A stretch of 64,000 nt of DNA from Bacteroidaceae bacterium (lineage in GTDB: Bacteria; Bacteroidota; Bacteroidia; Bacteroidales; Bacteroidaceae), in NCBI GenBank assembly GCA_017551925.1, contig JAFZKA010000043.1, positions 1 through 64,000 of the forward strand, written 5' to 3'. Position numbers and translations under genes: made by a program. Below the pieces are notes generated by a model that did no database searches, had not been told where the DNA came from, and worked only from the letters and a program-made list of their open reading frames with translations. Positions 35,085 through 53,919 of the stretch are shown piece by piece. Within the stretch, counting starts at the first letter, position 1. Each line of letters opens with the position of its first letter.

Positions 35085-35117
35085 TTTAGTCTTATAGACG
35101 TATTTGTTTTATCTTTG
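35085..35117 (+). promoter_or_regulatory. Promoter of the homocysteine gene cluster (TTTA, TATCTTTG)
   Basis: -33-like TTTA at 35085-35088 and -7 TATCTTTG at 35110-35117, spacing 21; start codon at 35140. No SAM or cobalamin riboswitch was recognised in the 189-base space. Confidence 0.5.
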
Positions 35118-35139: not shown

Positions 35140-36291
35140 ATGACAAAGAGTTACGAGGAGATTAATGAGAAGATCCGCAAGGGTAAGGCGGTGGTTCTGA
35201 CGGCCGAGGAGGTATCGGAAATGGCCAAGACAATGAAGCCCAAGGAGATTCTTGATAAGGTTGATGTGGTTACTACCGCTACGTTCGGTGCTATGTGCTC
35301 AAGCGGCGCGTTCCTGAATTTCGGTCACGCCAATCCGCCTATCCGCATGGAGAGGATAGAGATAAACGGAGTGCCAGTAAGCGGCGGTCTGGCTGCTGTG
35401 GATACATTTGTGGGAGCGACCGATTGCAATCCGCAGAACCCCACATACGGCGGCGCACACATAATCCAGGAACTTATTGACGGCAAGGAACTGACTCTTG
35501 AGGCATGGGGTAAGGGCACAGACTGCTACCCCCGTAAGCATATCAAGACCCAGATAAGCCTTAAGACCATCAATGAGGCCATCCTGATGAATCCCCGTAA
35601 CGCATATCAGAACTATAATGTGGCTGTAAACTCTACAGACCGCACATTATATACATATATGGGTACTCTGCTGCCACGCATGAAGAATGCTTCATACAGC
35701 TCAGCAGGTGAACTCTCACCGCTTCTCAATGACCCGGAATGCCGTACCATAGGTCTTGGAACACGCATATTCCTTTGCGGCACACAGGGTTATGTTGTAT
35801 GGAACGGTACTCAGTTCAACTGCTCAAAGCCGTTAAATGATTACGGCGTTCCGATGGGCAATGCCCGTACATTGGCGCTGATGGGTGAGATGCGTGAGAT
35901 GTCAAGCGAGTTCCTGCGCGGAGCCTATTTTGAGAAATACGGTGTTACAATGTACGTTGGTGTGGGTGTACCCATTCCGCTGCTGGATGAGGACCTGGCA
36001 CACCGTGTGAGCATACGTAACAGTCAGATTGATACATTTATAGAGGATTACGGTCAGAAGGGTGATCTGATAGGCAAGGTCAATTATGAGCAGTTGCGCT
36101 CAGGTGAGATTGAGTTTATGGGCAAGAAGATACATACCGCACCGCTCTCAAGCCTCTACAAGGCACGCAAGATTGCCGCTATTCTTAAGGACTGGATTGA
36201 GAAAGGCCAGTTTGAACTGACCGCTCCCGTACGCCCCATGCCTACAGGTACATCGCTGCAGGGATTAAAAGAAGTTGAACCGTCTAAATAA
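35140..36291 (+). CDS. Homocysteine biosynthesis protein (HcyBio, DUF39; MA1821-like)
   Basis: The family is established in methanogens as the enzyme that, with a ferredoxin partner, adds sulfide to aspartate semialdehyde and gives homocysteine. Visible family features are 'VDVVTTATFGAMCSSGAFLN' (Cys53), 'VGATDCNPQNPTYGGAHI' (Cys96) and 'AWGKGTDCYPRKH' (Cys129); Cys53 and Cys129 are the likely counterparts of the catalytic cysteines (inference). Length 383 aa is normal. The ferredoxin-like partner follows eight bases later and the UPF0280 gene after it. Cytoplasmic. Confidence 0.9.
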   Translation: MTKSYEEINEKIRKGKAVVLTAEEVSEMAKTMKPKEILDKVDVVTTATFGAMCSSGAFLNFGHANPPIRMERIEINGVPVSGGLAAVDTFVGATDCNPQNPTYGGAHIIQELIDGKELTLEAWGKGTDCYPRKHIKTQISLKTINEAILMNPRNAYQNYNVAVNSTDRTLYTYMGTLLPRMKNASYSSAGELSPLLNDPECRTIGLGTRIFLCGTQGYVVWNGTQFNCSKPLNDYGVPMGNARTLALMGEMREMSSEFLRGAYFEKYGVTMYVGVGVPIPLLDEDLAHRVSIRNSQIDTFIEDYGQKGDLIGKVNYEQLRSGEIEFMGKKIHTAPLSSLYKARKIAAILKDWIEKGQFELTAPVRPMPTGTSLQGLKEVEPSK

Positions 36292-36299
36292 AATACGCT

Positions 36300-36710
36300 A
36301 TGACAAAGAAAGTAGTTATAACATTTTCGGACGGTTCAGCAAGTCGTCCTCTTATATATGAGCTGATCAAGAAGTTTGACATCATGGTAAGCATCATCAA
36401 GGCCGATATCGACGGTGGTCGCAACGGTAAACTGGTGCTTGAGTTGGACTCGGATTCCGAGCATATACGCCAGGCCATTGATTTCATGCAGACGAGTGGG
36501 GTGGACGTTACTCCCCTTGAAAAGAAGATCAGTTATGATGACTCAAAGTGCGTGAGTTGCGGTGCGTGCACATCGGCATGTCCATCAGGTGCATTGTCAA
36601 TTGGCGCTCCTGATTGGAAACTGCGTTTCCAGCCCGATAAGTGCGTGGTCTGCAAACTCTGCATCACGGCTTGTCCGCTTAAACTTTTTCATATTGAGTT
36701 CGCTGATTAG
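36300..36710 (+). CDS. NIL domain-4Fe-4S ferredoxin (MA1822-like)
   Basis: Residues 1-72 form a NIL domain ('KKVVITFSDGSASRPLIYEL', 'GGRNGKLVLELDSDSEHI'), known from methionine transporters and sulfur proteins. Residues 75-136 are two 4Fe-4S sites: 'CVSCGACTSACPSGAL' and 'CVVCKLCITACPLKLF'. In methanogens the homologue works as the redox partner of HcyBio. Same order and spacing as there supports that role here. Confidence 0.9.
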   Translation: MTKKVVITFSDGSASRPLIYELIKKFDIMVSIIKADIDGGRNGKLVLELDSDSEHIRQAIDFMQTSGVDVTPLEKKISYDDSKCVSCGACTSACPSGALSIGAPDWKLRFQPDKCVVCKLCITACPLKLFHIEFAD

Positions 36711-36719
36711 CAGGTTTTT

Positions 36720-37469
36720 ATGGAATACAAGGAACGCAGTTACCGCAGCCGTTTTTCAAATGATGAAAGACGCTGGTTCTGCGTAAAGTTCCTTGAATCA
36801 GATTTATGGATAGGGGTCGATAACGGCTCCTATTCAGCATCTATGGAGGCCGATGTTTATGCTATGCTGGTAGAATTGCGCCGCTCAATGGATGCATATC
36901 TGCTTATGGATCCAGCCTACAAGACGGCACTTACACCGTATGATGCAGGTTTAGAGGCTCCGGCAATACTGAAAGAGATGTCAAAGGTGAGCCACAAGAC
37001 CGGAATAGGGCCCATGAGTGCTGTGGCCGGTGCTGTGGCTCTGCGCGTGGCCAATTTCATTAAGCAGCAGTATGGCGTTAAGGAAGTCATCGTCGAGAAC
37101 GGTGGCGATATTTATGCTGAGGCACACTCAGATATGGATATCGCAGTATTTGCCGGGCAGTCACCGCTATCTGAAAAGATAGGCCTTCACATACCCGCAG
37201 CAGATTTCCCGCTTGGAATCTGTACCTCAAGCGGCACGGTAGGTCCGTCATTAAGCTTGGGCCGGGCCGATGCCGTAATGATAGTATGCCGTGACGTCCT
37301 CCTGGCCGACAGTTACGCCACCGCAATGGCTAACCGCATCCGCACCGTTAATGACCTGCAGCCAGTTATTGACCGCATCCAAAACAATCCTGACATCCTT
37401 GGATCAATAGCCGTCAAGGATGACCGCCTGGCCATCTGCGGCCAGTTTGAGCTCCGCCTCTTCAAATAA
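36720..37469 (+). CDS. UPF0280 family protein (COG2122, MA1715-like)
   Basis: An ApbE-like fold protein: 'HKTGIGPMSAVAGAVALRVA', 'VIVENGGDIYAEA' and 'GICTSSGTVGPSLSLGRADAV' in part match the family. In methanogens the homologue was implicated in sulfide assimilation to homocysteine, chemistry unknown. It is third in the operon, nine bases after the ferredoxin gene, so the whole set appears to be conserved here. Confidence 0.88.
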   Translation: MEYKERSYRSRFSNDERRWFCVKFLESDLWIGVDNGSYSASMEADVYAMLVELRRSMDAYLLMDPAYKTALTPYDAGLEAPAILKEMSKVSHKTGIGPMSAVAGAVALRVANFIKQQYGVKEVIVENGGDIYAEAHSDMDIAVFAGQSPLSEKIGLHIPAADFPLGICTSSGTVGPSLSLGRADAVMIVCRDVLLADSYATAMANRIRTVNDLQPVIDRIQNNPDILGSIAVKDDRLAICGQFELRLFK

Positions 37470-37495
37470 ATCATCATTGTTTCCCATTTGCAGAA

Positions 37496-37688
37496 GCAGA
37501 ACTGTCAGTTTGGGGAGCATTCAGTGACTTGGCGTTAAGCGCAAGACCTTGAGAGAATCCCGTTAAAAACGGCACTGTTCGAGGAACGTTCGACCCCGTA
37601 GGGGGCGATAAGGACGAGTTTGCCGTTTAGGGTCCGGAAAGGTCTTGCGTAGCCAAGGAGCGTCTGCTCCCCAGACTGACAGCTCTGC
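37496..37688 (+). ncRNA. Structured intergenic element D
   Basis: The 329-base space between the UPF0280 and GH115 genes holds a highly structured element. The ends 37496-37518 and 37666-37688 are complementary (21 of 23, core CTGTCAG/CTGACAG). Inside are nested stems: CTTGGC/GCCAAG (37529-37534 with 37652-37657), CGCAAGACCTT/AAGGTCTTGCG (37540-37550 with 37639-37649), AACGGCA/TGCCGTT and CCCCGTAGGGG. It has no protein signature and the short open frames across it look accidental. The core differs from elements A-C but the plan is the same. A GATACCGATACCC motif follows at 37698-37710. Confidence 0.6.
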
Positions 37689-37761
37689 GTTGTTTCCGAT
37701 ACCGATACCCAAAAAATCTTGTGCATCTTGAAAGAGCAGAGCATTTATCAATATTATTATT

Positions 37762-53834: not shown

Positions 53835-53919
53835 GGAAGGATGGCAGAGTGGTCGAATGCGGCGGTCTTGAAAACCGTTGACCTTCACGGGTCCGGGGGT
53901 TCGAATCCCTCTTCTTCCG
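53835..53919 (+). tRNA. tRNA-Ser (anticodon TGA)
   Basis: Acceptor stem GGAAGGA (53835-53841) pairs with TTCTTCC (53912-53918), discriminator G. D arm 'TGGCAGAGTGG', anticodon loop CTTGAAA with TGA at 53869-53871, a long variable arm (GACCTTCACGGGTC region) as expected for class II, and the T loop 'GGTTCGAATCC'. CCA is not encoded. Flanked downstream by a hairpin terminator. Confidence 0.95.

Follow-up and report, generated by a model that had tools for sequence, protein, structure and literature searches.

We read three consecutive genes in a 64,000-nucleotide stretch of Bacteroidaceae DNA (the window) as a working operon for L-aspartate-semialdehyde sulfurtransferase (L-ASST), which would serve as a second source of homocysteine beside metA-metY, the two routes being interchangeable within the genus; the probability of this reading is put at roughly 0.85. 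It builds on the genes and their conservation, on purifying selection acting on both routes, on the joint absence of metA and metY from a set of relatives, and on decay of classical genes in place in two relatives.

The three-gene operon and its predicted products

The operon occupies positions 35140-37469 of the + strand. A DUF39/HcyBio (COG1900a) gene, assigned to an L-ASST subunit (35140..36291, 383 aa), is followed after 8 bases by a NIL-domain ferredoxin gene for an electron-delivery subunit with two 4Fe-4S sites (36300..36710, 136 aa), and after a further 9 bases by a COG2122/UPF0280 gene for a distant ApbE relative (36720..37469, 249 aa). The open reading frames and family matches confirm the consecutive HcyBio, NIL-ferredoxin and UPF0280/COG2122 genes with 8-9-base gaps given in the preliminary description, and the family matches also bear out its gene names, its operon and its assignment to homocysteine synthesis.

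The DUF39 protein matches PF01837 over the full length of the domain (profile positions 1-349 of 349, 488 bits, E 1.7e-146). Its AlphaFold model has a pLDDT of 84.5, and comparison of the model with the PDB gave no credible fold match (best E 0.06, probability 0.04). The ferredoxin gave Pfam matches to NIL (63 bits) and to Fer4 for two 4Fe-4S motifs, as required of the L-ASST partner ferredoxin. The third protein had no Pfam match; it is covered over nearly its full length by NCBIfam PRK04334 at 242 bits, under the model's own 271-bit cut-off, and matches the solved structure 2o34 (2o34_A) with an E of 3e-28, which identifies it as the COG2122 partner of L-ASST and a probable persulfide or sulfur-supply factor.

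Cysteine conservation was followed through the homologues of each protein. In DUF39, Cys53 is present in 121/121 sequences and Cys129 in 119/121, methanogenic archaea (Methanomassiliicoccales) with the same motifs among them; the two residues correspond to Cys54 and Cys131 of MA1821 by spacing and by alignment to the Methanomassiliicoccales homologues, MA1821 itself lying outside the alignment. In MA1821, the DUF39 protein of the Methanosarcina L-ASST MA1821-22, Cys54 is essential, while Cys131 is helpful and conserved (PMC12068725), and by spacing to that report the window protein carries the same type of conserved pair. The eight cluster cysteines of the ferredoxin are invariant in 41/41 sequences, and Cys168 of COG2122 in 38/38.

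Judged by its families, the trio is the known L-ASST set, for which there is genetic proof from Methanosarcina and Desulfovibrio. Mutants of Desulfovibrio vulgaris Miyazaki F in any of the three families (DvMF_1464, DvMF_0262 and DvMF_0044) need methionine, whereas homoserine dehydrogenase mutants need threonine only, so homoserine is not an intermediate of the pathway (PMC5764234). As recounted there from earlier work, Methanosarcina mutants without COG2122 have a higher sulfide requirement (PMC5764234). The arrangement in the window departs from both models. It shares DUF39, NIL-ferredoxin and COG2122 with MA1821/MA1822 and MA1715 of Methanosarcina acetivorans, together with the catalytic cysteine pattern as matched by spacing, but has all three genes in one operon and metA and metY in addition; a C-terminal CBS domain is reported for the methanogen L-ASST (PMC12068725), whereas a Pfam search found none in the 383-aa window protein. 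In D. vulgaris, locus tags indicate that the genes are non-adjacent, and no classical route was found, whereas the window genes form an operon and their genome has a classical route elsewhere.

The mechanism that we infer takes its order of steps from proposals in the literature. COG2122 would assist the loading of sulfur onto DUF39, which would hold it as a Cys53 persulfide and transfer it to the aldehyde of L-aspartate semialdehyde; electrons from the NIL-ferredoxin would then reduce the thio-intermediate to L-homocysteine, which MetH would methylate to methionine. If active in this species, the DUF39 route would run beside an intact metA-metY, probably selected for by factors such as free sulfide, reducing conditions or a saving of acetyl-CoA.

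Every genus locus with enough sequence to judge by has the order DUF39, NIL-ferredoxin, COG2122. Scanning of named genomes yielded at least 569 DUF39 loci, and among the best 80 of these the trio stands in order in 53 of the 64 loci with enough downstream sequence, in several phyla. Conservation to this extent indicates that the order is not due to chance. A putative -7 element of the Bacteroidales-type promoter, TATCTTTG (35110..35117, + strand), lies 30 nt 5' of the DUF39 ATG, and 19/28 genus relatives have a TAnnTTTG match at -29 to -33, a number that rises to 22/28 for -25 to -36. The element and its recurrent position support, without proving, the single promoter proposed for the trio. 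A sigma-70 scan gave nothing above chance, and an Rfam search at the gathering threshold returned only a tRNA at 53835, with no SAM riboswitch or other RNA in the vicinity of the trio or of metA/metY.

Downstream of the trio lies a 211-nt element (window 37490-37700) with inverted arms of 24 nt (37496-37519 and 37665-37688) that are 92% complementary. A copy at 88.6% stands beside metA in the same genome, and more copies occur in unrelated stretches. We considered the element as a shared methionine signal and rejected it, since the further copies in about 236 kb sampled from the same genome mark it as a dispersed repeat.

The classical route in the same genome

The window belongs to a 2.6-Mb genome assembly of 127 contigs (97% complete) that holds a single HcyBio copy. 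On contig C2 of this genome, metY is followed directly by metA; MetY scores 609 bits against TIGR01326 (cut-off 495) and MetA 486 bits against MetA_acetyl NF047918 (cut-off 460.5). A search of the genome found no MetX, and metF-metH lie on contig C64. The preliminary description had proposed that this bacterium may make methionine without O-acetylhomoserine sulfhydrylase, pointing to the absence of metA/metX/metY or metB/metC as the check and to a complete classical pathway, with the cluster dispensable for growth without methionine, as counter-evidence. MetX is indeed absent, but metA and metY are present and adjacent, and the pathway is complete for metA, metY, metF and metH; the proposal therefore falls for this genome and is supported in the genus relatives that lack metA and metY.

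For comparisons between the window's genome and close relatives, with the more distant G305 set aside, dN/dS was 0.01-0.09 for the trio and 0.04-0.09 for metA and metY. Purifying selection is strong on both routes, and both are thus probably in use. Dependence of this bacterium on the DUF39 route through lack of any classical homocysteine pathway is, as far as genomes can show, right for several relatives within the genus and wrong here, where metY and metA are intact, adjacent, above their family cut-offs and under purifying selection; we regard it as very unlikely. When one genome holds both routes, either could be dispensable.

The MetH encoded on C64 (L064:4446-6803) has 785 aa and shows no Met_synt_B12 activation domain in Pfam. 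In Bacteroides thetaiotaomicron, split reactivation domains have been described (PMC7311316). In two relatives, G070 and G305, the MetH beside the trio is a 1153-aa form with the Met_synt_B12 activation domain.

The genome also has cysD, cysN and cysH for sulfate assimilation, on contig C90. At this locus (L234:255-11327) they are accompanied by an Rrf2 regulator, a second PF01053 enzyme, DsrE2 and a TusA-like ORF, by a family 2B encapsulin shell (NF041163, 562 bits against 400) with a cysteine desulfurase matching the encapsulin cargo model (722, under its cut-off of 800), and by a ThiS-like carrier ending in GGGSL, a ThiF/MoeB E1, a JAMM protease and a PatB C-S lyase. The cluster could be another route to cysteine or homocysteine by sulfhydrylation. 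We take the ThiS-like carrier, E1 and JAMM protease to resemble the protein-thiocarboxylate route. That route is mentioned in PMC5764234.

metA and metY across the genus

DUF39 was found in 31/33 genomes of the genus. Full-length metA is present in 23/37, as is metY (TIGR01326), with a partial metY near a contig end in one more genome (G367). Both genes are absent from 13/37 (G070, G088, G104, G024, G255, G267, G313, G335, G359, G189, G391, G787 and G788). Most of the genomes are incomplete metagenome-assembled genomes (MAGs), and some of these absences are assembly gaps; that all of them are is unlikely, because completeness reaches 90-100% in four of the 13 (G070 98%, G088 96%, G104 90% and G024 100%). 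None of the 13 has a PF01053 enzyme at E 1e-30 or a MetX. DUF39 is present in all 11 of the 13 that were examined for it, and metH-type matches occur in 13/13, although in fragmented MAGs such a match may be a separate methyltransferase. Classical homocysteine synthesis, taken as intact metA, MetX or a PF01053 enzyme, is lacking in the four most complete genomes named above.

Decay of the classical genes can be seen in place in two relatives. In G024, a truncated lrp fragment and a metA fragment share one contig and meet at a single base; metY has been deleted, and metA carries a second, internal deletion of about 300 nt, leaving metA fragments only. The flanks are syntenic with those of G175, where lrp and metY are present and metA has a deletion of roughly 104 nt. 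In the metA tree the genus copies fall into one group (82/86 support), which favours descent with repeated loss over re-gain at the base of the genus. Mapped on a tree of the trio, the state of metA has to change five times and that of metY four times.

These patterns are consistent with the DUF39 route being nearly fixed in the genus, with metA and metY lost together several times, after which DUF39 alone would make homocysteine. On balance we lean towards ferredoxin-dependent L-ASST displacing the acyl-homoserine route in the genus, a group of Bacteroidales from gut or rumen, some members keeping both under selection, some having the classical genes decaying in place, and others retaining L-ASST only.

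In G305 and G070, the trio lies close to menA, ubiE, metF and metH, of which metF and metH were confirmed by Pfam and menA and ubiE were named by reading the sequence. This linkage bears on whether the main job of the trio in the window's genome is some other sulfur transfer, such as the making of a different thiol from an aldehyde. The complete metA-metY route there leaves room for such a role, and MMP16 (COG1900d), a COG1900 relative, makes coenzyme M (PMC12068725). The MMP16 model TIGR03287, however, matches the window DUF39 only partially, at 136 bits against a cut-off of 363.95, which places the protein outside that family; the conserved Cys53/Cys129 pattern fits COG1900a; and the trio shows linkage to metF-metH and persists in genomes lacking metA and metY. 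A main role other than methionine synthesis is accordingly very unlikely, and homocysteine synthesis by L-ASST remains our preferred reading.

Distribution beyond the genus and implications

Outside the genus DUF39 is sparse in the family: only one genome from the 29 further genera sampled has it. Of 393 genomes sampled from the order, another 11 are carriers. metA is absent from 9/12 of these carriers (the 11 order genomes and the lone family carrier, G076) and present in 3/12, and it is present in 7/7 of the non-carriers tested in the window's own family. The anticorrelation of DUF39 and metA beyond the genus is suggestive only, as shared descent links carriers with non-carriers and the samples are not independent. 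The DUF39 of G076 (locus L068) is closest to a Butyricimonas sequence with a support of 100, and may be a separate transfer or assembly contamination.

The best 80 of the at least 569 named loci come from Bacteroidota, Spirochaetota, Neomarinimicrobiota, Bacillota, Actinomycetota, one Thermotogota and Methanomassiliicoccales. Within this set, 20 of the 50 loci with 8 kb of downstream sequence have metH on the same strand within 8 kb downstream of the trio. Loci of Odoribacter, Butyricimonas, Draconibacterium and some spirochaetes (L110, L111, L115, L118, L144 and L153) have the trio order of the window, at 56-75% DUF39 identity, and continue into metH and metF, whereas the window trio stands alone with metF-metH on another contig, and the MetH of its genome is shorter than in such Odoribacter-type DUF39-NIL/Fd-COG2122-metH-metF clusters. 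A text search of the literature for Odoribacter together with homocysteine found nothing.

Other loci vary in composition. In four from Neomarinimicrobiota (L132, L140, L143 and L149), DUF39 is followed directly by COG2122, and no NIL-ferredoxin was detected at the locus; in L073 and L079 (G431 and G469), DUF39 and NIL-ferredoxin are present, and COG2122 was not found within the fetched stretch. In L142 (Mesoaciditogaceae), a NIL-ferredoxin match overlaps the end of a 448-aa DUF39 ORF, suggesting a fused or overlapping arrangement of the two.

In the DUF39 tree, the window gene groups with Rikenellaceae and Odoribacteraceae in a Bacteroidales clade, and the Thermoplasmatota (methanogen) sequences form a clade of their own, grouped with Bacillota. 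Gut and rumen Methanomassiliicoccales do carry the same trio, and the operon might on that account be a recent transfer from methanogens of the same gut or rumen; given the separate clades and the presence of DUF39 in nearly the whole genus, we consider this extremely unlikely. The label 'methanogen-type' in the preliminary description is for the same reason misleading, the pathway having been proven in Desulfovibrio as well (PMC5764234); on the tree, it reflects first discovery and not origin.

The pathway was already known and the operon is an ordinary member of its kind; what the analysis adds, modestly, is a set of genomes within one genus that looks like a pathway-replacement series. Finding an alternative pathway does not imply that the classical one is missing, as their coexistence in the window's genome cautions. 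Automatic tools that search for nothing but metA, metX, metB, metC and metY would score many gut Bacteroidales as auxotrophic for methionine, which they probably are not. With members that appear to hold both routes, to have one decaying or to have lost one, the genus offers a setting in which to ask when the direct sulfide route prevails, and if displacement is true, the cost and benefit of two homocysteine routes would be measurable among close relatives.
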